A DNA stretch of 64,000 bases from Scatophagus argus (lineage: Eukaryota; Chordata; Actinopteri; Scatophagidae): positions 14,209,019 through 14,273,018 of the forward strand of contig NC_058504.1 of the NCBI RefSeq assembly GCF_020382885.2, given 5' to 3'. A program made the translations under genes and the position numbers. A model generated the notes under the pieces. It searched no databases. It saw nothing but the letters and a program-made list of their open reading frames with translations, and was not told where the DNA came from. Each line of letters begins with the position of its first letter. Within the stretch, counting starts at the first letter, position 1. Shown here piece by piece: positions 26,017 through 57,567 of this stretch.

Positions 26017-28651
26017 TCAATTCAGTATATTCTCACTTCTGGACACAAGGTGGTAAAGCTGTAAAGGGCAGTTGCTCCCAAATGATGACTTCAGCTCTTT
26101 CTCAAAAACATGAACCACTGCAGTATTGAAATCTGATGTGATCTGTTTTCTTTGATATTCCTCAAAACTTCTATCTACCATTTTATTCCATTCCCCAATC
26201 AGAGTATTAATTGTCTTTTCTGGTTGGTTATGCATTTTATCTTGGATAATTTTCTTTCCATGGTTCAAATATTCTTCATTTATCAGACACAAGTTTTTTG
26301 TTTCACTCTTAATTTCTTTGAGAGCAGAGTTCACAACATCCAATTGCTGCTTTCTATGCTTGGGTTCAATGTCCAAGACTGTCCTAATATCTCCTGGTTT
26401 TAATTTATTAAAATCCTCGTAGTTTAATACAAAGGAGTCGCCTTGGCATTTATTGGAATAGCCATCCAAAATATCTGAAATGTCAGCCTTTTGAAAATAA
26501 TTTGAGCCACTAAATCCATAAAACTCTGAGAATATCACAGTGGTGAGAAACCCATATTCAGTTAGCCATTCACAGGATTTATGTAAAAGTTTGAACATGC
26601 AAGAGATAAGATGTTTTTTTTCTCTTTTCAAACATGGGCTGTTGGTTGTATAAATATAAATATTTTCCACATTTTTTCTATACTTTTGAAAAAATGTACA
26701 AAGTTTTTCAATTAGAAATTCCTCACTGTGCTTATTATCATTGTCTTTATTCTTCTCCTGTCTTTTTGGGTAAGCAGGAGCTGAAATTACAAGTCTGTCT
26801 TTCAAAACAACAACAGCAAAGGCATATTGTTTGCCAATTCCTTTGTGTTTCTTACGGTAGTGATTTACGAGATAAAGCAAGAGCGGTCCTGCAACGACTT
26901 GATGTACTCCTAATTTTTTTTTTGTATGCAAAGACATTATGTCATCATACTGCTTACCCCTCTCAGGATGTGGTATATTTTGTCCAAAATGCTTTTTCAA
27001 CTCCTGATATTTTATTTCAAATTTTGTTGTGCTTGATGTTGAAAGTAGATCACTTGAGTTTTTGTCTGATTGATTTGTAGGTAAGTCTAAATTTAGATTT
27101 ATGTTAATATCTATATCATGCCAGTCATGTAACTGGTCTGAGATGTCACAAATTATGACATTTTTCAAATCGATTGAACCACTAATATTTCCATATTGAC
27201 TTGTATTGAGCAAGTCAGGTGACTGAGGCTCTTTAAGTAACATTTCCAAATACAAAACTAGATAAGTGTTCTTGCAGCCAGAGTGATGGTTCTTCTCCTG
27301 CTGGTCCTTTTTCCTGGATAATAAAAAAGTTGAACTTAATTTAATTCATATGAAAAAAAGATACATTAAACGTTATGTTATTTAAGAAAGGAACAGGCAA
27401 ATGATGTCCTCCTGCTGAAAGCAGCGTCAAATCAGAAACCCTCCAGAAGGATGTACATAAACTATGTATTTTATGATTTCATTTGGAGGAGCTGTTGCAA
27501 ATTAAATATATATGAATCTGGGTCAATTAAACAACATACATTATAAGGCTCAGTAAGACATTGTTTCACAGCTGGATTGGATTTGTGTTGGATTAGGGCT
27601 TAAGTGGCGCACCATATTAAAGTATCCTTGCAAAGTTGATATCTTTTCTATTCAATGTGTGACAATATTATAATATTATAAACTATGTTAATTATGTTTC
27701 TAAAATGTGGTTTATTAATTACTAATATTGAATGCATAATTTTAACCATTTATTAATTATCATATTATTTAGTATTGACTGAAGTGAGTGAAGGCAGTTA
27801 TCTTTTCTTAACCCTGATAATGATTCACTGTCTTTCAAGTCTTTTACTCGAGCCATTTACATAAGACAAGTTGACATAAATAAACTGAGTTAAACACAGC
27901 ATTTTATTTCTTAGGGCGAACCTTTGAGATGAGATAGGTTGTAGCTCGATCGAATTGCTTGATGCCATCTCTTCTCTCTCAGGCATTTCTGGAATTTGTT
28001 GCCTGCTGCCCTCCTGCTTAATGAAGAAAAATTGTTTTATTACTGCCTATTGCAGCATTATGTTCTTATTGGCTTAAAGCAGGGGTCGGCAACGCGCGGC
28101 TCTGGAGCCGCATGCGGCTCTTCAGCGCCTCCCTAGTGGCTCTCTGGAGCTTTTTCAAAAATGTATGAAAATGGAAAGAAATAGGGGGGATATATATTTT
28201 GTTTTAATATGGTTTCTGTAGGAGCACAAACATGACACAAACGTTCTTAACGTTTTCCAGTGCTGTAAAAATGTTTATAATAAATATTAAATTTCAACAT
28301 TTCTGTCAACGACGATGTGCGTCATAGCCTGCGACACACGTTTTGGCGCGGCGCGTTGCCAGGCAGGTGGCTGTTGGAAACAAACCGGCGGGTGTGTCAT
28401 GGGCCATGGATCCCAAAGGGGAAAAGGGCTCTTTGAACATTTTGGGTTGCCGACCCCTGGCTTAAAGTGTTATATATCCAATGTGATGGTTAACAAACAA
28501 CATGTTATTGTGGAATATTTATGTAATAAGTCAGTAACTCCTGACAACTGCAAGAGTTGTCAACTAGTTTTTTTCTTTGAAGAACTGTCTTTTGATTAGC
28601 TAATACATAGATACATAAAAGATTAAGATAAGAGTAATCAGTTACCTCCAT
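26017..28651 (-). CDS. Divergent AID/APOBEC-like zinc deaminase candidate (paralogue A), three exons
   Basis: Exon model on the minus strand: ATGGAG 28651-28646 (donor GAG/GTAACT), 28013-27922 (acceptor TTAAGCAG, donor AAG/GTTCGC), 27313-26017 (acceptor TTATTATCCAG). Phases are 0 and 2, giving 464 codons without a stop. Deaminase-fold evidence is in the last exon. A hydrophobic strand KQYAFAVVVLKD is followed by HSEE on a helix (H-x-E zinc ligand and catalytic Glu), the strand NIYIYTTN, S-P-C with a second Cys after 10 residues, a helix, and strand FLTTVIFSEFYGFSG. The C-terminal part (FNTAVVHVFEKELKSSFG) matches the tandem copies at 37-54 kb, so they are one family. The N-terminus has no hydrophobic signal, so the protein is probably intracellular. 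Intron 1 holds a 380-bp hAT MITE. I do not recognise a named gene; SNAD/NAD-type AID/APOBEC relatives of fishes are the nearest idea. The PC-x10-C spacing is unusual. Confidence 0.6.
28080..28459. mobile_element. hAT MITE, 380 bp, in intron 1 of deaminase paralogue A
   Basis: Ends CAGGGGTCGGCAAC and GTTGCCGACCCCTG are perfect 14-bp inverted repeats, with a perfect 8-bp target duplication GCTTAAAG (28072-28079 and 28460-28467). It is an internal-deletion derivative of the same hAT family found at 23.6, 36.4, 44.3 and 50.1 kb, lying in the opposite orientation. No coding capacity. Confidence 0.93.
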
Positions 28652-28841
28652 GGCAAGAAACTGTGGACACTAGAGAGAGAAAATTTTGATTATTTACATT
28701 AACATTGAAAATGAGAATATATTGCTTTTTACTTTGTATCATTGCTTTGAATTTGGTTTGCTTATCATAGCGGGACATAATTGCCCAATGTTGTGTTACA
28801 CATGAAACAAAGCTGCAAAACACAGGAAAATCAGTTCTTAC

Positions 28842-29240: not shown

Positions 29241-29453
29241 AGAGAGTTAAGTTAAGACAGTTAAGATAAGATAAGACTTTGAACTCATGTTAAGGTTTAT
29301 TCATCAAATTAAAGAAAAGCACCTGGAAAAGGCTGGAGAGGGGAGAGAGAGAGGGAGAAGCATTTCCAAACCAGGCCAAATGACAGAATATGCTATCATA
29401 TCATGTTCTACTATCATAGATTAAACTAAAAACAAATAAAATAAATAACAACA

Positions 29454-29780
29454 ATGGTTGTATTGTTTTCCTTATCAATCAGTTTAGACATTAAATCTTT
29501 CAATCTTCAATTTAAAAGATATTGTCAGTGGACTGATAACACAGTATTTTCACTTGTCACAACAGGAGAAACACTGGTGGACGTAATAACAGTACCAACA
29601 GCTCAGTTTCTTGTAAATGTCTCAGTAAGACGAACAGAAAGTCAGCAGTACACCTGTGAGTCTCGTGTTATGAAAACCATGTGGTTTATGACATCAATGA
29701 GTCCACTATTGTTGTTCACCGTAAATGTTTTCCATGGGTGTGGAACAACTGTGGATGTGGTCAGACCAGAATGGGCTTAA
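29454..29780 (+). other. Duplicated 108-codon open frame, function unknown
   Basis: Open through segments such as CQWTDNTVFSLVTTGETLVD and VSVRRTESQQYTCES. A second copy at 41072-41386 is also open for 104 codons, with several amino-acid changes. The VSVRRTESQQYTC phrase is faintly Ig-like, but no domain can be assigned and no splice context supports a gene. It may be chance openness inside a duplicated repeat. Confidence 0.2.
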
Positions 29781-30730
29781 TGAAACTTTATCACACGCTA
29801 TGATGAAAAGCACTGGCCTTGAAATAATGTGCACAGAATAACAGCCATAACCTGCCGAAACTAACGTGCTACCTGAGTTTAACGAGTGAGTTACCTTTCT
29901 ATTAAAAATCTATATTGCCTATTCTCTAATTGCACTCACTGCCAGCTGAAGGACTTCAATTCACGACTCAACAGTCAGCTGTCTGTAAGTTTCGTTCTGA
30001 GAGGTTGGAGTGATACTTTTCAGGTTCAGTGGGTGAAGCACCAATGTGTGTTTTGATGTGTTGCTATACTGAGAGCCAACGTAGAAGCGGGGCAGAGACA
30101 CTATTATGGTGACCACATAATCGTTTCGTATTATTTTTATTTGGCCATTTCACAAAAAAGACAGAAACAGTGGATTCCCCCCGCCCGTTCAATTTGGGAG
30201 AAACCCACCAAGAGGTGAACTGCCCCCCCTTCCCTTTCTCACACACAGCTTCAGTGCACGACAGCTTCTCAGCAAGCACCTTGCAGCTGCAGGGGGCGCC
30301 AATTTGCCGATTCCCTACACAGTGATATCACAGATAATAGAAAACCATGTAGCGGCGCATTTTTTCCCAAGCACTCGTGCAGCCCTCCTTGTGTCATGCA
30401 AAGCGGCTGCGCAGTTCGCACGTGCCTACGTGTAACTACAAGCAGTTTGTTGACGTGGCCCAAAAACTTGTATTAACAGCAAGAGCTCTCACTCCTCCGA
30501 TTATTCACCCTCCTACACGCATACACAATGATGAAACAATCACGAGAAAGTGGGATGTCGGCTTTATACAAGATCTTTGCATCGCCAAAAGTAGAGTAAG
30601 ATGAGTGAATCTATGCCAGCAATAGCTTTGTGCAAAGACAATCAATAGCAGGAAGCACGAACCATGTTTTTGTTGCTTTGACAAATAATCAAAGTTTTAT
30701 TTAGCAAAGTTTCGAAAAAAGTATGCATGG
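29781..30730. repeat. Tandem-unit sequence, left part (matches 41.4-43.6 kb)
   Basis: Long stretches match 41400-41660 and 42890-43595, including the GC-rich segment near CAGGGGGCGCC and the end GTATGCATGGACAA. No gene seen. It shows that the duplicated unit begins left of the ERV. Confidence 0.7.
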
Positions 30731-30734
30731 ACAA

Positions 30735-31464
30735 TGTGGATTAATAAATATTTACCGTGCCTTATTCTGTTATATGCTTTGGTATAATTCATAATGTTAT
30801 AACCATGTAGAACTGGTTGTTTGTCTCAGGACTGCACACTCTGAGGGAGATAGAGGTATCATGCATAGTAGGAGAAGGACACCATATCTCAAGTCACTCT
30901 GACCGATGGGCGAAGACACTGATACACCACCCCTCCCCTCTGGCTTGAGTGGAAAGGTGTTGAGACTAACAACCGGTGTTATCCATCCATCCATCCATTT
31001 TCTATACCGCTTATACGTCAGGGTCGCGGGGGAGCTGGAGCCTATCCCAGCTGACTACGGGCAAGAGGCGGGGTACACCCTGGACTGGTCGCCAGTCAAT
31101 CGCAGGGCCCACACACAAAGACAAACAACCACACACTCTCACACTCACACCTAGGGGCAATTTAGAGTAGCCAATTAACCTAATGTGCATGTTTTTGGTA
31201 TTGTGGGAGGAAGCCGGAGTACCCGGAGAAAACCCATGCAGGCACAGGTAGAACATGCAAACTCCACATAGAAGGGCCCAGACCGGGATTCGAACCTGGA
31301 ACCCTCTTGCTATGAGGCGACAGTGCTAACCGGTGTTATCTTAAAGTATATAATGATGTACTTCCTTGAGTGCTTTAGATCCCACTTGGCGTTTGGCTGA
31401 AACAGACTTGTACTCTGAGGTGGGATCTCCAAAGATCTTTGTTTCTAAATAAATAACTCTGTTT
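30735..31464 (+). repeat. ERV 5' LTR, interrupted by a LINE fragment
   Basis: From 30946 it matches the 3' LTR copy, with one substitution (ACAACC versus ACACCC) and a 4-bp indel over about 166 bp. It contains a TATATAATG promoter-like motif (31351 onward) and AATAAATA near 31449. The first 211 bp have no counterpart in the truncated 3' LTR. Confidence 0.7.
30984..31328 (-). mobile_element. LINE 3' tail fragment inserted in the ERV 5' LTR
   Basis: Read on the minus strand it ends in GGATAAGCGGTATAG-like sequence and a GGAT array, the classic 3' end of an abundant teleost LINE. It is bounded by a direct repeat AACCGGTGTTATC at 30971-30983 and at about 31328-31340, while the 3' LTR carries the unoccupied site. 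It is 5'-truncated and non-coding. Confidence 0.82.
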
Positions 31465-31663
31465 TAAGGCTATTCAATGACTACACACCGTACACACACT
31501 CCTACCAGGCGAGGATGAAGCGCCCCATGAGCAGCATAAACACCCTATGACCTTGAGATAACACACACACTCAACTGCAAACATTTTCCCTTTAATCACC
31601 ACCAGCTAGGGAGTCAAATACAAATTATTTGGACTAGGTGATGTGCAAGCGATAGTTGATAAA

Positions 31664-32336
31664 ATGCCTCCAGTGGCAGAAGGTGGAGGATTGTGGCTAA
31701 ACAAACTAGATAGTCTCACTGCAGGACAGACTGTGGCGCTTGGAGACTTTAGAGCGGTGGCAGCTGGATGCATGACGGGAGCAGACCTGAGGGAGATTTA
31801 GGAGGAGGCTAATACAAGACACTCTACTGATAACACACCAATCACTAGGGTAAGCACTGACATAGGCAAAGCAATGAGAGAGAAGTATCCATTGCCCAAC
31901 GCTGCAATGGTTCCAAAATTACAGTGGGCGCCTGAACAGCACCCATGCGAGTTTCTAAATAAATGTAAGGACACGTGGCTCAAACACACAGGTGTCCACC
32001 CAGGGCCAAAAGGGGTACAAAGAGAATGGCGGTGTTAGAGGGTGTTCCAGAGGAGGTTAGAGGAAAAAAAACATTTAGTGCATCACCTCACTTGATCACA
32101 AGACGAACAGCAAAAGGAGCGGGACACTATTAAAGAGCTTCAGGGTCAATTACTGAAGCTACAACTGAACGAGGCCAGACAAAAAGTGGAGGCTCCGGGG
32201 GCTGGCCACCGTGGGGAGGAGAGGGGACGAGAGGACATGAGGGAAGGGGGGGACCACCAAAGGGACAGCCGGGAGGAAACGTGTGCTACTACTACAACCA
32301 ACCAAGACATTGGGTGAAAGACTGCTCCAGTATACC
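31664..32336 (+). pseudogene. ERV gag remnant
   Basis: Gag-like frames start at ATG 31664 and are broken by an in-frame TAG at 31799-31801, further stops and frame changes. Near the end is a nucleocapsid-type zinc knuckle (32284-32325) whose second zinc-ligand Cys position is Tyr, so it would not bind zinc normally. A TGA closes it before the protease frame. Structural protein of a retroviral particle; non-functional here. Confidence 0.6.
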
Positions 32337-32458
32337 GCAATGAGGGTGGGGCTGAGGTCGAGGCAATCCACCACACCCAGGCCTGACGCAGGCACTCAAT
32401 CACCAAGCAGCACCTACAGTATCCAGTATCCCATGGTGAACTGGGATGACTGGGAGGA

Positions 32459-34300
32459 GTGGGGAACACACCACAGAGAGACCACGACAGCAGACCCGAT
32501 GCTGTCTATAAAGTCAATCTATTGGGGAGAGATCTCCTCATCAAGCTGGGGGCATCCATACTGTGTAGCCCGGACGGACTCATAGTGACATTGACAGACG
32601 GCACCAGACTCCCCTGTACAGGTCTGAGAACCACAGGGCAATACCTCTTCCAGTCTGTGGAAGAACAGTATGCAGACATCTGCTGGGCTCTGTTGCAACC
32701 TGAAACGCCTGAGCACAACAGCATCCTGTCAGCCTACCTGCAGTGGAAACCCTGGATCTCACTTCTCGAGCCCTACATCTATCCTCCTGACCCAGGCCAC
32801 GTGACCCTCTTCTATGACAGACTGCAAACTGAGTGGTATCAAGATGGGTTCCAAGAACAGCTACAAGGTAAAAGTTGGCAAATACACTCCACCAACATAT
32901 ATGTGGCTCCAGAGGGAGTTGCAGCAGCAGTCATGCTCACAGAAGATAAACTAGATTGGTATATGGTGTCAGAAGAGGCGGTTCCTCGTGTCTCACTAGG
33001 ATTACATCCTAAACATCAGGCAAAAGACCTGGGAGGTGTGGTTAAACACGCTCTGGCTCAGACTGATTGGACACTCACACAAATCCCTCATCTTTACTAC
33101 TAAGCTAAGACATATCGCATTGATTGACATACGACATGGCTAACCCTCACACTTCGCATGGAACACCCCTATCCTGCCAGTAGAAAAGAAAGGGACAGGT
33201 AAATACAGAATGGCACATGACCTCAGAACCATTAATAACATCCTTTCTATTACTACGGTGCCCGTGCCTAATCCATATGTGGCTCTGACTAATCTGGATT
33301 CGTCTCAATCATGGTTTACATGCATTGATCTGGCTAATGCATTCTTTTGTCTCCCATTAGCAGAAGAGTGCTGTGACATTTTTTCATTTACCTACAAGGG
33401 TCGACAGCTGAGGTACACCAGGCTACCACAAGGGTTCACACTATCACCAGGGCTGTTCAATCAGTTCCTCAAATAGGCTTTAAGTGACTGCATTCTGCCA
33501 GACAACACCACACTCATTCAGTATGTAGATGGTCTCCTCCTGGCGGCGCCCACAGCTACTGTCTGTCTTACAGCAACCAGCTCTGTCCTGCAACACTTAG
33601 CCAGAAAAGGGTTTAAGGTAAGTAAAGCCAAATTACAGATAGCTAGGAAACAGGTTTTATTCCTAGGCAGAGCGATCTTCCAGAAAGGAGCAGGGATGTC
33701 TCCAAAAATTGGCTACTGCTACTGAATTGGCCTTACCAGACTACACGTTGCCATTCTACCTTGATGTTTCTGGAACAGATGCAGTTGTTAATGGCATTCT
33801 GTTCCAGAAAAAAGGAGGAGAAAAAACAGTGCTAATGTACATAACTGCAATAAACAAATCCATCAAACACGAGGCAGAAATGAGGGAACAATGCAGGAGG
33901 GTCAGATCATGCAGCAGAGATGGCGGCTGGGTATCAGGTAAAACTAGAACTAATGTGTTCAGAAGAAGAGATGGAACTGAACCAGAACTAACTGACATTA
34001 TAAGATTGCAAAAGGGGGTCTCACCACAGGAGAAAACGCTCTGGAAAGCCCAAGGAGCTAAAGAGGTGGGAGGAGTCCAGATGGACGTCTTATTCTATCC
34101 CATGAGAAAAACAGTGCTAGACGAGGCGCAAATAGTAGGACACGTGGGAGCGGCACAGATGCTGAGAAACCTGGAGAACTAGCGGCATCCTCACTTGAAA
34201 GATATGGTAAAACACTGGGTAAGAACATGTGAACTTTGCACCAAGTGCAATGCCAGACCGACCATCAAACTTGAACCGGAACAGAAGAGAAGACATCAAG
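32459..34300 (+). pseudogene. ERV pol remnant (protease end, RT, RNase H, integrase N-terminus)
   Basis: A 214-codon open piece starts with a protease C-terminal motif (NLLGRDLL) and runs into the RT N-terminal part. Frame changes follow. RT fingers/palm sequence is readable at 33210-33476 (LPQGFTLSP region), with a TAG right after it. The active-site motif then reads YVDG rather than YxDD, a lost catalytic Asp. RNase H-like sequence (33709 onward) and an integrase HHCC zinc-binding piece (H-P-H ... CELC, 34140-34250) follow. The integrase catalytic core is missing. Confidence 0.75.
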
Positions 34301-34799
34301 GGAGGAGGTGAAATAACGCTCCTCTCCTGCATGTGGCGTGCCAAGCCACCAACCTCCAAAACAGACACCTCTGAAATCTATGAATACAATAATCAGAGAA
34401 CAAAACAAATTGACCGAGCCGGTGGTATCACTCAGACAAAATACAGATTTGATTAAAACTCCTCCTTCAGCTGTACTGAAGTGAGCAGAGTGGTGGGACA
34501 CCACCGACATTTTAGGAGAACTACACTGTCCACTCCAGCCTAATGCACTCAGGTCTATTACCAATACTTGTAGATGACAGATAAACTTTCCAATTGGGCT
34601 TTTCTACATTACATATACGTTGGACGAAATCAGATGTTATATGTCAAAATAGACAGATGGTGAGACGGTATGATTTGAGAATTTAAGAAGTTTAAATAGG
34701 ACACAAAGATGTCCAACTGTCAAGTATCTTTCTTTATTGTTTGTTTGTTTATTGTATGTGTGGCTTTGGCTCTTGCTCTAATAAAACTTTTGCTGTGCG

Positions 34800-35455
34800 G
34801 TCATACCAGACTATAAACGGGATAAGCTGTACAGCCTCGTGGCTGCTAGAATTGAGTCACGCTTGCATAATCAACTTCAAAACATTGACAGGATAAAGAA
34901 AAGAGAAGTGATGTATGGTAATGCTAAATGGCTAGCAGGACTCAGCCTGCTGGCCGTGCTGATTGTAACTTTAATATTACTCTTGTGTGAATCCACTGAC
35001 CAACACCCTGCCTCCTCCACGATAGCTTCTAGAGTCAAATGAGCAACCGCACATTCAGGCAAAACAACAGACTATTGTTTGCAGCAATACGGCGGAATTG
35101 AATTAAATTACACCATAGGGAGTACGACCACGTTTGTATTTGACCTGTGTTCAGTCATCCCCTGTGGCAACCGACCTAGTGACTGGAAGGAATATGACAT
35201 TCATTTATGTAATGATAACCCCACTAATGCAGAATGTTCCGCAGGCAAGGCCATAATGGGAACATGGTGTGGTGACTGGAGTATGGTGAGAGCATACACT
35301 GGCGGACACTGGAGCCCTTATAAATTAAAGGCACCATCCCAAAGCAGATGGGGCCAGGTAAAATTCCAACGCAACTTTGACACAACTTCGAACAAGGTCC
35401 TTACGCTCTTAGTCCCAACGCCAAATCATTTTACCTAGTATTGGGTGTAGAACAC
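34800..35455 (+). pseudogene. ERV env remnant, N-terminal part
   Basis: A leader with a strong hydrophobic segment (LAGLSLLAVLIVTLILLL) ends in a TGA at 35040. A Cys-containing surface-domain-like stretch (35079-35438) follows and then stops. The fusion peptide, transmembrane subunit and cytoplasmic tail are absent: sequence passes straight into the truncated 3' LTR. Assignment rests on position and hydrophobicity pattern. Confidence 0.5.
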
Positions 35456-35495
35456 ACCGGTATGGACACCAAGGGGTTAATTAAAATCGAGTGAC

Positions 35496-35707
35496 TGAGT
35501 GGAAAGGTGTTGAGACTAACACCCGGTGTTATCTTAAAGTATATAATGATGTACTTCCTTGAGTGCTTTAGATCCCACTTGGCGTTTGGCTGAAACAGAC
35601 TTGTACTCTGAGGTGGGATCTCCAAAGATCTTTGTTTCTAAATAAATAACTGACTCTGTTTAACTCTCTCACATCAACCTACTCGGGGAAGCAAGTGTGC
35701 TTCAACA
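35496..35707 (+). repeat. ERV 3' LTR, 5'-truncated
   Basis: It matches the 5' LTR from TGAGTGGAAAGG through the AATAAATAAC poly(A) region, then continues about 46 bp to the terminal CA. That last part has been lost from the 5' LTR. Confidence 0.7.
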
Positions 35708-36352
35708 ACAACCTGCTGCAAACAGTTGAAAGCTATGGTATTGCTCTTGGGTTTACATCTGCTACTTCTCTAGATCCCTGCTACCGACTGTCCGACAGGT
35801 GTTGGAAACTGTGCTCGAGTAGCCCGCATTACACATCAGGGAAAACTACAGATTGTCTGATTGTTTCTCCTATCTCCTCTCCTAACTCATTCATATTTTG
35901 AGCGAACGTGAACTGAACGTGCGGTATTTCCGCTTGATGATCGTTATTGTGAACGCGTTAGTTCTGGCGTTTGTGAACGGCGCTCTCTCACAGAATAATT
36001 TCGTTCAAGAGCGTGCCAGATTTTAGTAGAAAACCCACGCTGAACAACCCTTAATATGTAGCGGAAAAAGCATCCAACCTGGCGACAGCTGTCATACCTG
36101 TCGCAGTAACAAATACGTCATCAAAAGACGGAGTATGGACGAAGGCAGCGCCAGCTCGGACCACTCAGACTCAACTGCGTTTGACTATTACAAAAAGTAC
36201 TCAAATGGAAAAACATTTGCACCTTAAGGACTACAGTCCTGGTTTTGTTTTCATAATAAAAATAAACACGATTCAAGCAGCAAGGTTTTGCTCGTGTTTT
36301 TGAGAATATGCTGTAGGCGTGAAAGCTGAAGCTGCTACTAGTGTGGACTGAA

Positions 36353-36956
36353 TGGGCGGCAACCCAAAATGTTCAAAGAGCCATATTGGACCCAAAAAAC
36401 AAATCTGTCTGGAGCCGCAAAAAATGAAAAGCCTTATATAAGCCTTATATGAAGGGAACACAGGCTGTAAGTGTATGTTAGCTATATTAGCTTACCAATT
36501 TGATGAATGAATCCTTCACGTACTCACCATCTGTGAGCGGTTTTCCACGCGTTATTATCTCCCGGGTTGCAACAAAACTAGCAGCAGAAGTGGAGTTTGG
36601 AGATGCAATCCACCTCTTAAATCTATGTTTGCGCTCCTCTAATTTCTCCAGAAGTAAAGCAATCGCACATTTTCTCTCACTCCCAAATGAGTGGTCTGCT
36701 GCAAATTTAGCATGACACACCCGCCGGTGTGTTTACAACAGCCACCTGCCTGGCACCACCGCGCCGCGCCAAAACGTGTGTCGCAGGCTATGACGCACAT
36801 CGTCGTTGACAGAAATGCTGAAATTTAATATTTATTATAAACATTTTTACAGCATTGGAAAACGTTAAGAACGTTTGTGTCATGTTTGTCCTCCTACAGA
36901 AACCATATTAAAACAAAATATATATTCCCCCCTATTTCTTTCCATTTTATACATTT
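36353..36956 (-). mobile_element. hAT remnant in tandem unit 1, both ends lost
   Basis: It matches the element at 44266. The left terminus is gone through a 26-bp deletion between two CGGCAAC repeats, so GGGCGGCAAC runs straight into CCAAAATG. The right end is cut at CATTTTATACATTTC. It carries a shortened piece of the hAT transposase N-terminus on the minus strand. Confidence 0.8.
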
Positions 36957-37420: not shown

Positions 37421-37608
37421 CTAAAGTTTTCTTCAAAGGTTTCCTTCAAAAGTTTCATTCAAAAGACTGGAAAAGATGCGGGCCTGATCTCTTGTGCAGC
37501 CAGCGAGGTTTGTTCATTTATGTGTTTTTATGTTTCTCTGTGTATATTTACAGTTTGTGTGTAATATGAAGTACTCTTAACTGTATTCATCATCATGTGT
37601 TTAAACAG
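37420..37608 (+). other. Probable 5' UTR exon/intron of deaminase-like copy 1
   Basis: GCAGCCAGCGAG/GTTTGT (donor at 37508) and TTTAAACAG/GTCGACG (acceptor ending 37608) frame a 101-bp intron. The donor is retained at 45422 (copy 2) and 52918 (copy 3). Copy 3 reads AACAAG/TCGACG at the acceptor, with AG kept. Confidence 0.4.
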
Positions 37609-39032: not shown

Positions 39033-39131
39033 ACCGAAACGTTTGAAAACCTATACAGACAGCAGGACTAAGATAAGAAATCTTGCTATATTGCTTGTGA
39101 TGCGACAGGAAACCAAGGGCTTTGTAAAGTC

Positions 39132-44257: not shown

Positions 44258-44265
44258 CGTTAGGG

Positions 44266-44875
44266 CAGGGGTCGGCAACCCAAAATGTTCAAAGAGCCAT
44301 ATTGGACACAAAAAACAAATCTGTCTGGAGCCGCAAAAAATTAAAAGCCTTATATGAAGGGAACACAGGCTGTAAGTGTATGTTAGCTTACCAAAATGAC
44401 TAATTTGATGAATGAATCCTTCACGTACTCACCATCTGTGAACGGTTTTCCACGCGTTATTATCTCCCGGGTTGCAGCAAAACTAGCAGCAGAAGTGGAG
44501 TTTGGAGATGCAATCCACCTCTTAAATCTATCTTTGCGCTCCTCTAATTTCTCCAGAAGTAAAGCAATCGCACTTTTTCTCTCTCACTCCCAACTGGGTG
44601 GTCTGCTGCAAATTTAGCATGTCATTTAGCATGACACACCCGCCGGTGTGTTTCCAACAGCCACCTGCCTGGCACCGCGCCGCGCCAAAACGTGTGTCGC
44701 AGGCTATGACGCACATCGTCGTTGACAGAAATGTTGAAATTTAATATTTATTATAAACATTTTTACAGCACTGGAAAACGTTAAGACTGTTAGTGTCATG
44801 TTTGTCCTCCTACAGAAACCATATTAAAACAAAATATATATTCCCCCTATTTCTTTCCATTTTATACATTTCATA
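44266..44875 (-). mobile_element. hAT remnant in tandem unit 2, left end intact, right end missing
   Basis: It starts with an intact CAGGGGTCGGCAAC terminus preceded by CGTTAGGG (44258-44265). It is cut off at CATTTTATACATTTC, where the upstream block of the deaminase-like gene begins. The missing right end with the matching CGTTAGGG flank is found at 50948-50955. Confidence 0.85.
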
Positions 44876-45335
44876 CAGTTGACTCTCCTCGGCTTTGAGT
44901 TGTCTTCTTAGTCCTTGTCAGGAGAAAGTACAGCCAAAAAGATCGTGTGTTGGCACTGAGTTGCCTATAAAGCCTTCCCTCAGCCAATCATTTTGGGCGA
45001 CATTTTGGTTGTTGCAATGGCAAGTTTTATTATGAATTGAAACCGAAAGGATTTTCAAGTTCAAACTTGATAAAGCAGCACTGTGTGTTTTAAAGTTACG
45101 ATAGAGAGTTAACATTCAACAAAGCAAAGTGTTGAAATCGTTTTTTCTCCATATCTACAATGACATCTGTAGTGCAGGTAAGTAAGTAAGTGGAAGTAAG
45201 TAAGTAACGTGTAGGCGGCACAAAAAAGACTGCGGTCAAGCCAGCCTTTACAATGTGTTCAAGTGACCCAATATACGAGACACTATGGTAATAGCGAGTT
45301 CGAACCCATCTCACAATAAAGAGGCGGTGCTCCCG
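44876..45335 (+). promoter_or_regulatory. Upstream block of deaminase-like copy 2
   Basis: Nearly identical to the block upstream of copy 1, including TATAAAG (near 44968) and an ISRE-type motif. Confidence 0.4.
45039..45049. promoter_or_regulatory. ISRE-like motif GAAACCGAAAG
   Basis: It fits GAAANNGAAA and is the same site as 37124 in copy 1, with the last base G instead of C. Confidence 0.4.
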
Positions 45336-45894
45336 CTAAAGTTTTCTTCAAAGGTTTCCTTCAAAAGTTTCATTCAAAAGACTGGAAAAGATGCGGGCCT
45401 GATCTCTTGTGCAGCCAGCGAGGTTTGTTCATTTATGTGTTTTTATGTTTCTCTGTGTATATTTACAGTTTGTGTGTAATATGAAGTACTCTTAACTGTA
45501 TTCATCATCATGTGTTTAAACAGGTCGACGACGGTTTTCGGCGACAGAGATACAGTCGGGATAAATAAATCAACCAGTGACAGAAGAACTACATGGTGTG
45601 TATTGAGTGACAACCAGTATATCGGAATGAATAAACGGACACTTCTTGTATTAGTGTCCTGTTTATTCTTGGCCATATAAAAAGTGACAAAGGGTCACGA
45701 GGGAAGTATTTGCGTTAAAACAAAATCTTTGATGCGAATTTGAAGTTTTCTTACACATCAACGGTTTCGTTTCCTGACTACCGACCACAGTGCTCACAGT
45801 GGACCGGTTACAATCGGAGCACCAAGCCATCATATCGATAACACGACAATAACAAAACCATAACAACAGTGAGACAAATCTGTTATACCATAAT

Positions 45895-46986
45895 ATGATG
45901 GAAAGTATTCAATCGTTAAAAGACATCTGGAAACAAACAACAAACCGCTGTGACAACACAGAAATGTTTAATCACCCGGTGAGACAGTTTTCAACTGAAG
46001 GAGAGGAAAATGATAATAATGTGTCTTTTGAGAGGGTATTGCATCATTATATAAGACCAGAAGAAGCTGAAAGAGAGAAGCAATATGCATTTTCTGTCAT
46101 CCTCATGAAAGACAACAGACAAAAGTTTTTTCCACCAGTTTATCCAGATTTTACAAACAACAAAGAGTCTGGTGGTCCAAAAACAGCAATCCACAGTGAA
46201 GAAATTTTAATTAAACAACTGGATAGCTTTATGTGCCAAAATGGAACAATGGTGAAACAAATTTTGATTTACACGTATTACAGCCCGTGTTTAAAGAGGA
46301 ACAGACCTGACCCTTGTATGTTTCAGATTATAGACAGTGCCGTTGCATGGTTTATGCGTTATGGTGTTTACACTTATGTGCTTTACACAAAGTCGTGGGG
46401 ATTAAACGGTCCAAATTACTTTAAAAATCTCAGTTATGCCACTATCTCATGTCCCTGCAGTGTTTTTTATCCGTATATTGAAAAAAGCAAGGACACTTCT
46501 TTCTGTTTGGATCATAAGAATCTGAGAAGCATTTTTAAAAAAAGTGACGTCTACAAGACATTGTCACGTGTTGAAGACAATGATAAAAATACTCTACGCT
46601 GCAGTATTAAGTCTGCTCATGAAATCCTTGTGAGGCTGGCTCAAAATTCACACGGTCTGTGTAACCATCATTTGGAATGTGGAGAACTGGCAATTCAGTC
46701 TTTCTCATTTCTGCCCGAAGTTCACCATGAAATTTGTGAGAAATTGCAGAAGGAGTGGAAGGAAATGGTCAGAAACAGTTCGATGACAGTGATCAGAAAA
46801 ACCATCACAGAAGAATTCAACAGTGCTGTAGTTCATCTATTTAGAGAACAGTTGAAGTCATCTGTGGGGAAGAGCAGCCCCCTGCGGCTTCACTGTATTC
46901 CTTGCCCTGCGCGCTTGTCTCCTCGGCGCTCTCATGCTCGATCACGAAGCGAAACGTTTGAAAACCTATACAGACAGCAGGACTAA
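45895..46986 (+). CDS. AID/APOBEC-like zinc deaminase candidate, tandem copy 2 (363 aa)
   Basis: Full-length member of the tandem family, with HSEE and S-P-C-x8-C at the same places as copy 3 and all ligands present. The N-terminal third is almost identical to copy 1 at the DNA level. In the middle it reads IIDSAVAW ... GVYTYVLYTKSWG, closer to copy 3. Further on it has private changes (HEILVRLAQ, CNHHLECGEL, LQKEWKEM) where copies 1 and 3 agree. The tail LSPRRSHARSRSETFENLYRQQD-type end is basic and Ser-rich. The start MMESIQSLKD is shared by all three copies and preceded by the same CATAAT. Family known only by fold; substrate and role are inferred. Confidence 0.64.
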   Translation: MMESIQSLKDIWKQTTNRCDNTEMFNHPVRQFSTEGEENDNNVSFERVLHHYIRPEEAEREKQYAFSVILMKDNRQKFFPPVYPDFTNNKESGGPKTAIHSEEILIKQLDSFMCQNGTMVKQILIYTYYSPCLKRNRPDPCMFQIIDSAVAWFMRYGVYTYVLYTKSWGLNGPNYFKNLSYATISCPCSVFYPYIEKSKDTSFCLDHKNLRSIFKKSDVYKTLSRVEDNDKNTLRCSIKSAHEILVRLAQNSHGLCNHHLECGELAIQSFSFLPEVHHEICEKLQKEWKEMVRNSSMTVIRKTITEEFNSAVVHLFREQLKSSVGKSSPLRLHCIPCPARLSPRRSHARSRSETFENLYRQQD

Positions 46987-47950
46987 GATAAGAAATCTTG
47001 CTGAAATGCTTGTGATGCGACAGGAAACCAAGGGCTTTGGAAAGTTTTCTCATTTTCAACGTGGGACATCACTTTCAACGCAGTCACCCGACATGATGGT
47101 GTGTACATGACATTTTCAGACTCATGTTGGTGGTGTTTTTTTTGAAAATAAAATGAATGACTTTTAACCTTCCTCTGCTTATTTGTGTTTATCCTTAACA
47201 TGCCATTGATATGTCAAGCACAGGAAAACCTCCTCACCTGTTACTTGCTCATATGGCGACAAACACCAGGCCTATACTTTACAAAGAAAGTTAATAAAAC
47301 TATGCCTGATGGTGATAATAAATATTGTAGTTCACTAGAAATAAAAGAAATTATATTCCAACTAGTTTAATTGAGCCATAAGAAGTCCTCTGTGAGATTA
47401 TGCCATTTACTCAAGCAATAATGTCTGAACACTTCTTGTTTTAAAGTCTTTTCAGTTTATTATAAACATCCTTGTGCAGCGCAGTGACACTGTTAAAGTT
47501 CTAGTAACAGTGCAAACTAGAAAATTTCACAGGACATTTTGAGTGGGCCAATGTCACTTTAGCCTCACCATGCAGAACAAAAGCAGGCTGAGGAGGCAGG
47601 GAGCTGGCTGGCAGGAAGAAATCTTCGGCAGCATAACACAGGAGAACAGCACACAGAGGTAGAGCGCAGAATAATCCGGCAGCAAGCAGGAGTGCAGGCC
47701 TAGAACTCAGGTGTGCCTCTGCTGCCAAATGGAGGAACCAACCACATCCCCTGCCACACACAGGTTCTGCAAAAAGAACAGAAAAAGGAGGGGGAACAGA
47801 GAGAGCACAAGGAGAAAAACACAACAAAAAACATGCAAAGCCAAACCATAACAATTGTGTTTGTATCCGTGGCACAGTAAAATGATCTTCTTCTTAAATT
47901 CATAAAGAGTCTTTAGAATGTATAGATCAAGTAAGGAAGAAGCCAAGCTT
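46987..47950. other. Unit 2 spacer after copy 2
   Basis: Matches 39033-40370 without the SINE and 99-bp duplication. AATAAAATG at about 47147 may be the poly(A) signal. No gene seen. Confidence 0.5.
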
Positions 47951-48600: not shown

Positions 48601-49882
48601 TAAGACTACAGTAACATCATAACATAATACATAAATACAGTAACATTATAATAATATAATAGTGCTATTACCAGGTATAAACTTGTCCTGTCAAAATATA
48701 CACTGTGAAATCATAATTAATTCACGACTCAACAGTCAGCTGTCTGTAAGTTTCGTTTTGAGAGTTTGGAATGATACTTTTCAGGTTCAGTAGGTGAAGC
48801 ACCGATGTGTGTTTTGACGTGTTGATGTATTGAGAGCCGACATAGAAGCAGTGCAGAGACACTACGAGAATGTTTATCAGGTGACAAACTATACTGTTAG
48901 GTCAAGAAAATCTCAGTTTCATGTCAGCAGTCTGTCAGCCATTGACAGAGCTAAAAAAATAATCTTTGTCCGTTGCCTGTGTAACATAAATATTATTTAT
49001 ATCATTATTTGATATGTTGTGTTGTGTAATACTTCATTTATGTGATTTAACTTACAAGGCATGTAGAAACCTCGGTGCTGTGCATAGACTTTATGTTACA
49101 CGGGGGACACTTTAGTTGTTTCAACAGATGCACAGGAGACGTGAAGCAGGACTCAGCTTTAAAAATCAACAAAGCATTTCACTGCTGTCCCTTTAACTTA
49201 TCACTTGTCTCCTGCCAGTTTATTGAAAATAACTTTGTAAAATTCTATACACCTTTACTTTATCTTTGTGAATGAGTTTGCATACATTTAGATTTTATTT
49301 TATACAACAAATTTATACAATAATGATCAATGTTATGTTGATGATGATGATGTTATGACAATATAATTATGTGAACAGATCAGTTTTTGTGTGGAACTAA
49401 ACAGGGCCATCATGTTAATCCTGTCCTGGATGCAAAGGACAACACCTTCTCTTCCTCTCTCTGGAGCCCACCCCTATTAAACAAACAATAATATAAAATC
49501 TTAAGAATAATATACAAATAAAATGTAGAATAAATATTCTAAATAGCACAAATCCTTCATCACACAAAAAACACACTAAATAAAGTCTAATTATTACACT
49601 ATTGCACTAAGAACACAAAACACAAACTAAAACTAAAACCTGACTTTTCCGGCCTTCCTTGATGCAAAATCCAGTTCTCCAATCCTCCAATTCTATGTTT
49701 TTAGTATAGAATTTGAGCTTTTAGTTATGACTGTTTAAACTACGTTTTGTCACAAAACAGAGATGTAGCAAATGGCAAATGTTCATCTTTGAAACTACCT
49801 ACACATATGAAAAGTGCGTTGGCTAATTACAGGACCCAACGTGAGGGAAATAAATAATAGCTCAACTTGTAACAGTTTTGTT
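48601..49882. repeat. Left part of tandem unit 3
   Basis: Matches 41570-42560 of unit 2 with small indels. AT-rich, no recognised gene. Confidence 0.65.
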
Positions 49883-49895
49883 GCAAAGCACAACC

Positions 49896-50020
49896 ATCCA
49901 TCCATCCATTTTCTATACCGCTTATCCGTCAGGGTCGCGGGGGAGCTGGAGCCTATCCCAGCTGACTGCGGGTGAGAGGCGGGGTTCACCCTGGACTGGT
50001 CGCCAGTCAATCGCAGGGCC
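49896..50020 (-). mobile_element. Short LINE-tail/SINE-like insertion, 125 bp
   Basis: Same 3' tail family as at 30984. It is flanked by GCAAAGCACAACC on both sides (49883-49895, 50021-50033), and the empty site GCAAAGCACAA stands in unit 2 near 42569. Its 5' boundary GGCCCTGCGATTGAC (minus strand) is the same as that of the copy at 52386. Confidence 0.92.
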
Positions 50021-50067
50021 GCAAAGCACAACCTTATGGTGAAATTATATCTGGTGTTTGTTAAGAC

Positions 50068-50947
50068 CAGGTGTCGGCAACCCAAAATGTCCAAAGAGCA
50101 ATATTGGACCAAAAAAAAAAACAAAAAACAAATCTGTCTGGAGCCGCAAAAAATTAAAAGCCTTATATAAGCCTTGTATGAAGGGAACACAGGCTGTAAG
50201 TGTATATTAGCTTACCAAAATGACTAATTTGATGAATGAATCCTTCACGTACTCACCATCTGTGAAAGGTTTTCCACGCGTTATTATCTCCCGGGTTGCA
50301 GCAAAACTAGCAGCAGAAGTGGAGTTTGGAGATGCAATCCACCTCTTAAATCTGTCTTTGCGCTCCTCTAATTTCTCCAGAAGTAAAGCAATCGCACTTT
50401 TTCTCTCACTCCCAACTGGGTGGTCTGCTGCACATTTAGCATGCCTTCCCTGGAAATGTCTTTCCAAATTGCACTTTTTGTTATTTGACAACTTCTCATT
50501 ACAAAGCAAACATGCAGGCAATCCTTCCGCATCGGCAATGAAAGCAAATGATTCGGTCCATTCTTCCTGGAATCCTCTGTTCTCATCAGCTATCTTTCGC
50601 TTTTCCCCTTTGGGATCCATGGCCCATGACACACCCGCCGGTTTGTTTCCAACAGCCACCTGCCTGGCACCGCGCCGCGCCAAAACGTGTGTCGCAGGCT
50701 GTGACGCACATCGTCGTTGACAGAAATGTTGAAATTTAATATTTATTATAAACATTTTTACAGCACTGGAAAACGTTAAGAATGTTTGTGTCATGTTTGT
50801 CCTCCTACAGAAACCATATTAAAACAAAATATATATTCCCCCCTATTTCTTTCCATTTTCATACACTTTTGAAAAAGCTCCAGCGAGCCACTAGGGAGGC
50901 GCTGAAGAGCCACATGCGGCTCCAGAGCCGCGCGTTGCCGACCCCTG
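50068..50947 (-). mobile_element. hAT element, 880 bp, with non-matching flanks
   Basis: Both termini are present (CAGGTGTCGGCAAC and GTTGCCGACCCCTG), but the 8 bp on the left (GTTAAGAC) and right (CGTTAGGG) differ. The right flank equals the left flank of the unit 2 hAT (44258-44265). The left flank matches the unoccupied unit 2 sequence GTTAAGAT (about 42606). The minus strand carries the same GTF2IRD2-like N-terminal fragment. Confidence 0.9.
50207..50622 (-). pseudogene. hAT transposase N-terminal fragment (GTF2IRD2-like)
   Basis: Starts MDPKGEKRKIADENRGF and is closely similar to the fragment at 23760-24165 with the zinc-finger-like Cys/His set kept (CLLC ... HFQGRH). Ends after DSFIKL. 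No catalytic domain. Confidence 0.75.
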
Positions 50948-51169
50948 CGTTAGGGAAATACCAGTATTTTAAGTGCTGTCGCCTCAATGCTAATGTAAAC
51001 CCTGGTTGGACAAGGATTCAAGATTGGATACGAAGATGAATGTGCCACATAGTTTCAGTCTTAAAGCTGCTAAAATAATTGCTGTTTGTGGTTCTCTGTG
51101 GACTGTGGAAATAATTTTGACAAATAATAGCTCGCAGCAGCGTACTGAAGAAAAAAAGACTATGGACTA

Positions 51170-52260
51170 GTTCGTTTTTGGAACCTTGAACTTAGTTCAA
51201 AATTTTGAATTATGAACTTTGAACTGAACTAGTTCAATTTAAAAATTGTGAACTGAACTTTGAACTAGTTCATGTCATGTTTCCTAACACTGGGCACGTG
51301 GATACATAAATGCAATAACAACACGTCTAACAGAAAACACATAAGAACAAACATAATGACATTACGTGGTCACTGTGAAAATTTATTAAGAGCTTCAGTG
51401 GCTGAGGGGGACAAAGCTTTTTTTTTCCTTGAACAGCCTTTGAGCAGACAGATTTTGAATGGGCAGACCAATCATTTTTAGGCACTGTGTGACAGGGAGC
51501 AGTTTGGCACCTGTTTGGCACCTGTTTGCCAAACGACAATAAGAGCAAATATTACCCGAGGGAGGGACCGCGGGCGTCGACTGCGCCACCTCGTGGACGC
51601 CTGAATCACTCAGTGAACTACACTCTCCTGAGTCATTTTCCTCTGAGGGATACACTTTCATGGTGACCATTGTCCCCGGTTGTTTTAACAGATTTAGTTT
51701 CCAGATAAACAAACTTAAAACGTTAGGCTGGCAGTAATGAAGAGAGTGAAACCCATCAGCAGGCACAAGGCAGGAGCAACGCAGGGAGATAGGGGTGTGT
51801 TGTATTCAAGTGTATCTCGGAGAAAACTCGCTTTTTTTAAACTCTGCTAAATTGCCACCGCAACAACTCACGTACAGTAGGACACAGCATGTAACAAGTA
51901 GTGTATAAAACCTGCAGTTTGTGACTCTCATTGCAACAATTTGCGAGGGAACAGTGCGTGTTCAGTGTGAATCCTTCACTGAATGAACTGCAGGGCACTG
52001 AGCCCAATTTGCCGAGAATACCAGTTAAATAGCATTCCATAGGACAGGACACTTGAAACATCGTGATTTATAAACAAGTTTACTCTTACAGACGTGTTGT
52101 CAAAGCAACACAGCAACAACACTCTCGTCTCCCGATCCGGAAGCTGTGCACTGAACTGAAACCTGAAACCTGAAACCAGTCTCCTCCCGCCAAGCACGGA
52201 ATGATTCGGTGAACGAATCACATCTAAAGTAACTGTCGTGCCCATCACTGCACAGACGCT
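51170..52260 (-). mobile_element. Unclassified DNA-transposon remnant
   Basis: The right side begins (minus strand) CAGTGATGGGCACGAC and the left side near 51285 reads CACTGGGCACG, an imperfect inverted pair. The minus strand has a start-exon-like frame from 51660 (MVTMKVYPSEENDSGECSS, ending at a CCTCGG/GTAATA donor). A GAAC/GTTC-rich stretch at 51170-51280 may be its tail or a different repeat. Bounds and class are uncertain. Confidence 0.35.
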
Positions 52261-52284
52261 ATAAATAAATATCCCGCACTGTAG

Positions 52285-52800
52285 TCGCGCCAAAGTTTTC
52301 AAATGCCTCCATATATGAGACACTATGGTAATAACGAACCGATTTCACAATAAAAGCAGTGTTCTTGCAACTAGGCAAAGTTACATCCATCCATCCATTT
52401 TCTATACCGCTTATCCGTCAGGATCACGGGGGAGCTGGAGCCTATCCCAGCTGACTACGGGCGAGAGGCGGGGTACACCCTGGACTGGTCGCCAGTCAAT
52501 CGCAGGGCCGCAAAGTTACATTCACTCAACAATACATGATCACATTGATATAATAAATAAATAAAATAATGAACAAATAAACAAATTAAGCTCTAAATAT
52601 GCCATCAAATTTGTTCTCTGAATTCAGAGTGCTGTTTCAAGGAAACTTGCTGCACTGAACAGTTTGATTTGAAATTGATTTAATGACTGAATGTAACTTT
52701 TCCCAGTTTCCGCTGCCTTTATTGTGAAATCGATTGGAACTCGTATTACCATAGTGTCTCTTATATAGAGGCACTTGAAAACATTATGGAGGCTGGCTTG
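52285..52800. repeat. Inverted repeat around the promoter of copy 3
   Basis: Arm 1, about 52295-52380 (ATATATGAGACACTATGGTAATAACG ... TTTCACAATAAAAGC), recurs inverted at about 52700-52800 (GCCTTTATTGTGAAATCG ... ATTACCATAGTGTCTCTTATATAGAGG). A related single arm lies at 37345-37400 before copy 1, in the arm 1 orientation. A LINE tail splits arm 1. Confidence 0.75.
52386..52509 (-). mobile_element. Short LINE-tail/SINE-like insertion, 124 bp
   Basis: Flanked by GCAAAGTTACA on both sides (52375-52385, 52510-52520). Nearly identical to the 125-bp copy at 49896, with the same 5' cut point. Confidence 0.92.
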
Positions 52801-52809
52801 ACCCCATCT

Positions 52810-53586
52810 TTGAACTTCAGGCGGGAAAGTCCGCGGAAAGGGCGTTACTCCCACCGAAGTTTCTTTCAAATGACTGGAAAAGGACGTCGACTGATCTTGG
52901 TCTTGTGCAGCCAGCGAGGTTTGTTCATTTATGTCATTTATGTGTTTTTATGTTTCTCTGTGTATATACAGTTTGTGTGTAATATGAAGTAATCTTAACA
53001 CAGTGTAATATGTGTGTAAACAAGTCGACGGCGGTTTTCGGCGACAGAGATATAGTCGGGATAAATAAATCAATCAGTAACAGAAGAACTACATGGTGTG
53101 TATTTCCTGGACAGAGTGACAACCTGTATTCCAGAAAATATTGGTATGAATGACTTGGCCTTCAGTTTGACTTCAGTTGCATCATCCAGTAGCGGACACT
53201 TCTTGATGTAAGTTTTCTTGTCTTCAGTTTCCTGTTGTTTTTTTTCCTTGGCTGTATAAAGAGTATAATGATAAAGGGTCACGAGGGAAGCTAAAAGTGT
53301 TTACCTTAAAACAAAGTCTTTGAAGCGAATACTAGGATTTTTATTTAATTCGATCATAGTTTGCGTGTAATATGAAATAATCTTATCTTGTCGTGTATTT
53401 CCTGGACAGAGACACAGGCACGCACCTTGCCTTCCATCACTATAAGTTTTCTTTACACATCAGCGGTTTCGTTTCCTGACTGCCGACCGCCGCGCTGATG
53501 AAAGGACCGGTAACATTCTGAGAACCAAACCATCACATCGATAACGCGACGGCAACGCGGCGATAAGAAGAGATTTAATTTGTAAT
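52810..53586 (+). promoter_or_regulatory. 5' region of deaminase-like copy 3
   Basis: Contains TTATATAGAGG just upstream (52753), then the likely 5' UTR exon with donor CCAGCGAG/GTTTGT at 52918, then GTCGACGG-like exon sequence as in copies 1 and 2. It diverges more from copies 1 and 2 than the coding part does. No clear GAAANNGAAA motif was seen here. Confidence 0.35.
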
Positions 53587-54678
53587 ATGATGGAAAGTAT
53601 TCAATCGTTAAAAGACATTTGGAAACAAACAACAAACCACAGTGACAACACAGAAATGTTTAATCTCCTGGTGAGACAGTTTTCAACTGAAGGAGAGGAA
53701 AATGATAATGATGTGTCTTTTGAGAGGGTATTGCATCCTTATATAAGACCACAAGAAGCTGAAAGAGAGAAGCAATATGCATTTTCTGTCATCCTCATGA
53801 AAGACAACAGACAAATGTTTTTTCCACCAGTTTATCCAGATTTTACAACCAACAAAGAGTCTGGTGGTCCAAAAACAGCAATCCACAGTGAAGAAATTTT
53901 AATTAAACAACTGGATAACTTTATGTGCCAAAATGGAACAAAGGTGAAACAAGTTTTGATTTACACGTATTACAGCCCGTGTTTAAAGAGGAACAGACCT
54001 GACCCTTGTATGTTTCAGGTTATAGACAGTGCCGCTGCATGGTTTACGCGTTATGGTGTTTACACTTATGTGGTATTCACAAAGTCATGGGGATTAAACG
54101 GTCCAAATTATTTTAAAAATCTCAGTTATGCCACTATCTCATGTCCCTGCAGTGTTTTTTATCCGTATATTGAAAAAAGCAAGGGCACTTCTTTCTGTTT
54201 GGATCATAAGAATCTGAGAAGCATTTTTAAAAAAAGTGACGTCTACAAGACATTGTCACGTGTTGAAGACAATGATAAAAATACTCTACGCTGCAGTATT
54301 AAGTCTGCTCATGAAACCCTTGTGACGCTGGCTCAAAATTCACATGGTCTGTGTAAACATCATTTGGAATGTGGAGAACAGGCAATTCAGTCTTTCTCAT
54401 TTCTGCCCGAAGTTCACCATGAAATTTGTGAGAAATTGGAGAAGGATTGGAAGGAAATGGTCAGAAACAGTTCGATGACAGTGATCAGAAAAACCATCAC
54501 AGAAGAATTCAACAGTGCTGTAGTTCATCTATTTAGAGAACAGTTGGAGTCATCTGTGGGGAAGAGCAGCCCCCTGCGGCTTCACTGTATTCCTTGCCCT
54601 GCCCGCTTGTCTCCTCGGCGCTCTTGTGCTCGATCACGAAGCAGAACGTTTGATTACCTATGCAGACAGCAGGACTAA
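53587..54678 (+). CDS. AID/APOBEC-like zinc deaminase candidate, tandem copy 3 (363 aa)
   Basis: Best reference copy. Residue map: YAFSVILMKD 64-73, H100-S-E102, VLIYTYYSPC132, C141, helix to AAAWF, strand GVYTYVVFTKSW, loop GLNGPNYF 169-176, CPC at 186-188, then helical regions with FNSAVVHLFREQLESSVG and an Arg/Ser-rich tail (RLSPRRSCARSRSRTF) that could be a nuclear localisation signal. Differs from copies 1/2 at the N-terminus (NHSD, FNLLVRQ) but agrees with copy 1 over HETLVTLAQ ... KHHLECGEQ. No frame damage. H-x-E with P-C-x(n)-C and alternating strand/helix order is the zinc cytidine-deaminase pattern; the 8-residue gap between cysteines (2-4 in typical AID/APOBEC) is the main reason for caution. 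Alternative: a structural zinc-binding protein with an inactive deaminase fold. Confidence 0.65.
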   Translation: MMESIQSLKDIWKQTTNHSDNTEMFNLLVRQFSTEGEENDNDVSFERVLHPYIRPQEAEREKQYAFSVILMKDNRQMFFPPVYPDFTTNKESGGPKTAIHSEEILIKQLDNFMCQNGTKVKQVLIYTYYSPCLKRNRPDPCMFQVIDSAAAWFTRYGVYTYVVFTKSWGLNGPNYFKNLSYATISCPCSVFYPYIEKSKGTSFCLDHKNLRSIFKKSDVYKTLSRVEDNDKNTLRCSIKSAHETLVTLAQNSHGLCKHHLECGEQAIQSFSFLPEVHHEICEKLEKDWKEMVRNSSMTVIRKTITEEFNSAVVHLFREQLESSVGKSSPLRLHCIPCPARLSPRRSCARSRSRTFDYLCRQQD

Positions 54679-57560: not shown

Positions 57561-57567
57561 TGCTGGG

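Follow-up and report, generated by a model that had tools for sequence, protein, structure and literature searches.

A cluster of SNAD3 zinc-deaminase genes in Scatophagus argus and the probable intracellular site of its products

Genes at the locus and their family

A 64,000-nucleotide stretch of the genome of the spotted scat, Scatophagus argus (contig NC_058504.1, positions 14,209,019 to 14,273,018), here called the window, carries four genes of the SNAD3 family (PF18749), three of them as tandem copies on the plus strand and one as a divergent paralogue on the minus strand (Table 1). This arrangement agrees with the original prediction, made from the letters of the window, that a family of AID/APOBEC-like zinc-deaminase candidates had multiplied in fish at this place. 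The open reading frames (ORFs) from which that prediction started were all recovered, namely the three plus-strand frames and a minus-strand frame at 26017-27255, but the latter did not represent the whole gene. The minus-strand model really comprises three exons bounded by GT/AG, and once spliced it translates to exactly the sequence of database protein P0025 (464 aa), which is entered as LOC124068033 isoform X2 of Scatophagus argus. Copies 2 and 3 have 363 residues each, copy 2 being identical to database protein P0001, and the stop codon of copy 1 at 39030-39032, beyond the deaminase domain, makes that copy 13 residues shorter. The three plus-strand proteins share 92-94% identity with one another, and the minus-strand paralogue shares about 29-33% with them.

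For evaluation of the catalytic motif, the pattern H[AVSCP]E-x(20-40)-PC-x(2-12)-C was searched in all six-frame stop-to-stop ORFs of at least 60 residues throughout the window. It occurred four times, once in each SNAD3 gene, whereas 200 shuffles of these ORFs gave 0.1 occurrences on average and never more than 2, confirming the order H-S-E ... S-P-C-x(8-10)-C that had been described for the four genes. We then considered an alignment of 28 rows, which combines the three tandem copies and the full-length product of the minus-strand gene with 24 other database proteins. The residues H100, S101, E102, E103, S130, P131, C132, R135, C141 and W152 were invariant in all 28 rows; the minus-strand paralogue and the tandem copies thus keep H100, E102, C132 and C141 at the same positions, as had been claimed.

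All four window proteins exceeded the curated PF18749 cut-off of 27 bits (67.8-95.9 bits), and the profile was matched by every aligned row at E<=1 (28/28). Database relatives were collected by a first protein search (24), a second one (3) and a profile search (29), giving 31 distinct proteins, and PF18749 is present as a precomputed domain in each of them; those bearing species names are, as we take it from taxonomy, all from spiny-rayed fish. Judged by these sequence matches, the four window proteins are almost certainly members of SNAD3, and the proposed kinship of their zinc-deaminase-type motif to AID/APOBEC-like SNAD clades holds. The founding paper on the SNAD clades is reportedly that of Krishnan et al. 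2018.

The deaminase segment alone was further scanned against Pfam for 14 of the 28 rows (E<=1). SNAD3 and APOBEC_N were matched by all 14 rows (best E 2.2e-5 for APOBEC_N), SNAD1 and NAD1 by 13 each, dCMP_cyt_deam_1 (best E 6.9e-4) and XOO_2897-deam by 6 each, SNAD4 by 5, Inv-AAD by 4, APOBEC3 by 3 and APOBEC4_like by 2. Every family matched by at least two rows was a deaminase family, and four more families appeared as single weak matches. This dominance of deaminase families supports a zinc-deaminase fold, which we consider very probable for the SNAD3 proteins. Three results weigh on the other side: the matches of the window proteins to APOBEC_N, SNAD1, NAD1 and dCMP_cyt_deam_1 stayed under the family cut-offs (for APOBEC_N, PF08210, no window protein scored above 23.2 bits, with a curated cut-off of 25); the full-length scan also returned SpmSyn_N, tRNA-synt_1d and PigL_N in two rows each at E<=1; and the SNAD3 profile, compared by sequence with solved structures, found no deaminase even at E 10. 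The solved structures were searched with a single protein, the full alignment and the domain-only alignment, none of which reached a deaminase, and two matches obtained there (E 0.36 and 0.52) were rejected, as they lay outside the catalytic segment and looked like chance. Scans of NCBIfam and PHROGs remained at chance level (best E 0.039 and 0.043, respectively). In viral contigs, 22 pattern matches were found, none of which was confirmed as a relative.

N-termini, cysteines and divergence of the copies

The family itself being already named, what deserves attention at this locus is that the SNAD3 sequences do not fit the name 'secreted'. As a signal-peptide test, we used the best 10-residue Kyte-Doolittle mean within the first 45 residues, with 11 exported and 18 cytosolic proteins picked by hand from one 49-kb E. 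coli region as controls. All 11 exported controls scored from 2.04 to 3.19. The maximum across the 31 database relatives was 1.85 (P0004, in a stretch from residue 28), so that none of them scored like an exported control, and neither did any of the tandem copies 1, 2 and 3, with -0.13, -0.13 and 0.70. The 412-aa minus-strand ORF gave 1.27 but does not begin at the true N-terminus of the protein; the full P0025 scored -0.09. Five of the 31 database proteins (P0016, P0025, P0027, P0030 and P0031) share a polar N-terminus that reads [QR]Q[IV]P[ED]M-x-EREEM. As for the cysteines, only the columns of C132 and C141 held Cys throughout the 28 rows; the column with the next highest count held it in 18 of 27 rows and one gap-rich column in 6 of 7, while the C-terminal columns, checked for a three-Cys cluster, held it in at most 11 of 28. 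With no signal-peptide-like N-terminus and no conserved Cys beyond the putative zinc ligands, these proteins look most like intracellular enzymes, and the percomorph SNAD3 enzyme probably stays inside the cell. The label 'secreted' therefore appears unsupported for the SNAD3 group, whose membership as a sequence family rests on the profile.

Among the three tandem copies, 43 of 1050 coding nucleotides are variable. The ratio of nonsynonymous to synonymous substitution rates (dN/dS) was 3.0, 1.5 and 1.1 for the three copy pairs; its excess over 1 was not significant (p 0.08, 0.31 and 0.49), a point against the overall explanation given below. Between copies 1 and 2, the coding sequence was more diverged than the flanks, again without significance (p=0.07). 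The copies show no sign of purifying selection and a clustering of changes, and positive selection is not proven.

The variable sites also form blocks in which the odd copy out switches along the gene: residues 11-119 set copy 3 apart at 11 of their 12 sites, residues 138-207 set copy 1 apart at 10 of 19 and residues 244-347 set copy 2 apart at 9 of 11, as does one further site in residue 123 (21 runs against 28.4 expected, p=0.011). In addition, a single 90-nt stretch covering residues 138-167 accounts for 15 of the 43 variable sites (p=5e-5, with a test window of our own choosing), and of the 22 residues in 350 that differ between copies 1 and 2, 11 lie within this stretch. Both the switching and the clustering fit an exchange of segments, either among these three genes or with others beyond the window. 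We dropped the view of one side of the cluster as simply ancestral, because ancestral states were mixed across ten close relatives, whose commonest residue is carried by copy 1 at positions 146, 161 and 163 and by copies 2 and 3 at 162, 186 and 207. By analogy, residues 138-167 should overlap helix 3 and strand 4, immediately ahead of the presumed substrate loop, and the contrast between copies 1 and 2 offers a ready natural experiment on that block.

In a tree of 33 protein rows, the minus-strand gene grouped with two sparid proteins and two others (5 rows, support 99/97), on a branch of length 1.16 that the program flagged as long and uncertain. For the tandem copies, the tree gave a 13-row clade (98/96) that includes butterflyfish and grouper proteins among others. 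Going by these sequences, the scat genome appears to combine two old lineages of SNAD3 with a single recent burst. Among the relatives, P0013 (Pampus punctatissimus) has, by eye, an apparent partial second C-terminal region at its N-terminus and a match to PF20384 (DUF6679); either a gene fusion or an artefact of annotation may lie behind this arrangement.

Proposed action and alternative readings

Since zinc-deaminase chemistry is established for the superfamily (as given in the available part of PMC11004436), each SNAD3 protein would most likely bind one zinc through H100, C132 and C141, with E102 acting as proton shuttle while cytosine in single-stranded nucleic acid is deaminated by hydrolysis. 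That SNAD3 is a nucleic-acid cytosine deaminase is fairly likely. The enzyme would act inside the cell against viral or retroelement nucleic acid, in the manner of APOBEC3, and its genes have multiplied in tandem and been reshuffled. The missing export signal, the lineage-specific duplication and the unconstrained protein change together make an intracellular antiviral or anti-retroelement role the most likely one, and we hold a cluster of such intracellular zinc deaminases to be the best overall explanation of the locus with moderate confidence; for the antiviral role taken singly, the chances appear evenly balanced. A more detailed picture, in which the SNAD3 genes of spiny-rayed fish encode intracellular, fast-evolving, tandem nucleic-acid deaminases and form an independently evolved restriction cluster in the role of mammalian APOBEC3, with gene conversion between copies and change concentrated at alpha-3/beta-4 by the presumed substrate loop, is put forward tentatively and is somewhat less likely than not.

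Promoter patterns gave little support to the antiviral role. The strict interferon element GAAANNGAAACY was absent throughout the window, and the looser GAAANNGAAA had a single occurrence upstream of copy 1, another upstream of copy 2 and none upstream of copy 3, both of which tell against such a role. A further GAAANNGAAA lay in the minus-strand region, where the region searched is mostly within the gene itself, and the NF-kB pattern was not found in the regions searched. The GAS-type pattern TTCNNNGAA had four sites between 52205 and 53524, within 1.5 kb upstream of copy 3, which exceeds the average for the window (8 counts where 0.94 would be expected, as the pattern is palindromic and each site counts on both strands), and none upstream of copies 1 and 2; our case does not depend on this excess.

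The intracellular site has to be weighed against the way in which the SNADs are usually presented. In the parts available of PMC11004436 and PMC8201067 they are treated as secreted, the latter, a review, ascribing to them a predicted secretion sequence; signal peptides were predicted for 26 of 38 SNAD1 proteins (PMC11004436, same part), and SNAD1 was detected in shark plasma according to the accessible text of PMC9207270. SNAD3 might accordingly be truly secreted, either through 5' exons missing from the annotation or by an unconventional route, and be delivered to infected cells or extracellular parasites. The sequence upstream of each tandem start codon, with 14 open in-frame codons containing AG dinucleotides, would allow splicing from a 5' exon, and several relatives lie on short contigs and may lack such an exon. 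Our test is also crude, its controls being bacterial and chosen by ourselves from one region, and although 16 of the 18 cytosolic controls scored below 2.04, two reached 2.11 and 2.16; moreover, P0016 from a grouper has a hydrophobic stretch in its interior (19-residue mean 1.68 at residue 198), a possible membrane segment. All of this weakens the case for an intracellular site. Secretion nevertheless seems unlikely to us, given that the scores of all 31 relatives fall short of the exported controls, that the complete minus-strand model begins with a polar N-terminus similar to those of four other relatives, and that fully conserved Cys are limited to the two putative zinc ligands, in contrast to the C-terminal three-Cys cluster given as a SNAD characteristic in the available part of PMC11004436. 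The open-licence literature searched contained no experimental study of SNAD3. If percomorph SNAD3 does act inside cells, its role, the test systems and the comparison group would change, and these proteins would become candidates for intracellular restriction factors against viruses or retroelements.

Two further alternatives concern the family and the substrate. The original prediction had favoured a related or new clade, made unusual by wide Cys-Cys spacing and a C-terminal region of about 150 residues, and both features do set the window proteins apart from classical enzymes with PC-x(2-4)-C; the available part of PMC11004436 gives Cx2-4C for classical enzymes and CVxxC for SNAD1. The spacing is real (8 or 10 residues in the window genes), but the next Cys after PC lies 7-11 residues away in all 31 relatives, which makes it a feature of the whole group rather than the mark of a new clade. 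The C-terminal region of copy 3, scanned alone, matched SNAD3 profile positions 258-366 (E 1.9e-6, 27.8 bits) and so lies inside the existing model, while that of the minus-strand gene gave no SNAD3 match when scanned alone, though it aligned with the other rows. As the PF18749 model already covers all four proteins, the supposed new clade has a name, and a clade distinct from those described is very improbable; a SNAD3 sub-clade within the existing family is possible. SNAD3 is described as a clade of ray-finned fish in the parts of PMC11004436 and PMC8201067 available, being named as such in the former and covered by the wording 'SNAD2 and 3' in the latter. PMC13402138 was rejected as a source on SNAD3, since the whole word is absent from it and the text matches are probably gene names starting with snad_3.

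With respect to the substrate, SNAD3 might act on free cytidine, deoxycytidine or another small molecule, or might have lost catalysis and kept nucleic-acid binding. The match to dCMP_cyt_deam_1 points in this direction, as do the residues before P-C in the aligned rows, which read [TS]-x-[NY]-S in place of the classical S-W-S, a motif critical for polynucleotide deamination according to the available part of the review PMC8201067. Since APOBEC_N was matched by more rows and with a lower best E than dCMP_cyt_deam_1, and the invariance of H, E and both C in all 28 rows makes loss of catalysis unlikely, we regard this alternative as rather improbable and keep to a nucleic-acid cytosine deaminase as the preferred reading.

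Compared with classical AID/APOBEC enzymes, the window proteins share the HxE...PC...C logic and differ by their sub-threshold scores, their wider Cys-Cys spacing, the absence of S-W-S and the added C-terminal region. Tandem expansion is a feature of APOBEC3, which the window proteins resemble in this respect and in their apparently intracellular nature. With SNAD1 (PF18744) they share a weak match across the catalytic segment, given at E<=1 by 24 of the 28 rows; they score under its cut-off, and their x8-10 spacing and lack of any further Cys column common to all rows contrast with the CVxxC motif, the signal peptide of most members and the three-Cys cluster of SNAD1 (PMC11004436, in the part available).

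Array architecture and neighbouring features

The tandem copies lie in an array of three units, each composed of a spacer and one gene (Table 1). Units A and B agree at 89-99% in blocks that lie, in unit A, within 29290-30734, 35724-39182 and 39550-40374, whereas unit C is more diverged in its upstream part and contains repeat insertions. Unit A is interrupted by retroelement remains from about 30.8 to 35.7 kb; at 31600-35500 on the plus strand, pieces of broken frames match reverse transcriptase (PF00078), and an RNase H match (PF17919) stays under the cut-off.

Table 1 Positions of the features discussed, in window coordinates
Feature	Position	Strand	Basis
SNAD3 divergent paralogue (LOC124068033), 464 aa	26017..28651	-	PF18749 67.8 bits for the 412-aa ORF
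Its exons 1, 2 and 3	28651-28646, 28013-27922, 27313-26017	-	GT/AG borders
SNAD3 tandem copy 1, 350 aa	37980..39032	+	ORF; PF18749 87.9 bits
SNAD3 tandem copy 2, 363 aa	45895..46986	+	PF18749 92 bits; identical to P0001
SNAD3 tandem copy 3, 363 aa (H100, E102, C132, C141)	53587..54678	+	PF18749 95.9 bits
Predicted zinc/catalytic segment of copy 3, HSEE ... SPC-x8-C	53884..54009	+	Motif scan, alignment
Array unit A, spacer and copy 1, ~11 kb	29290..40374	+	Self-comparison
Array unit B, spacer and copy 2, ~7 kb	40900..47918	+	Self-comparison
Array unit C, spacer and copy 3, ~6 kb	48717..54740	+	Self-comparison
REEP2-like exons	12919-15956	+	PF03134: 14188-14349 below, 14556-14726 above cut-off
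JmjC exon, farther left of the cluster	6843-7103	+	Domain match

To the left of the cluster, three exon pieces of a gene that we take to be REEP2 were scanned, and PF03134 was matched by two of them, one above and one below the cut-off, the third giving none; the proposed REEP2 neighbourhood is thereby supported. The JmjC exon presumably belongs to a KDM3B-like gene. Coding-looking pieces adjoin the SNAD3 genes at 22116-23162 on the minus strand, with no Pfam match in the three pieces scanned.

A repeat with a zinc-finger frame is present at 23601-24490 and 50057-50947 (96% identical), with shorter copies at 28080, 36357 and 44266. It matches PF18658 weakly, under the cut-off, and is probably a DNA transposon that spread through the array. 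Downstream of copy 3, at 56500-59000, coding-like blocks of the QDRRSRSTFKIGV type are repeated in several frames, and three related stretches of about 350 bases are 80-91% alike.

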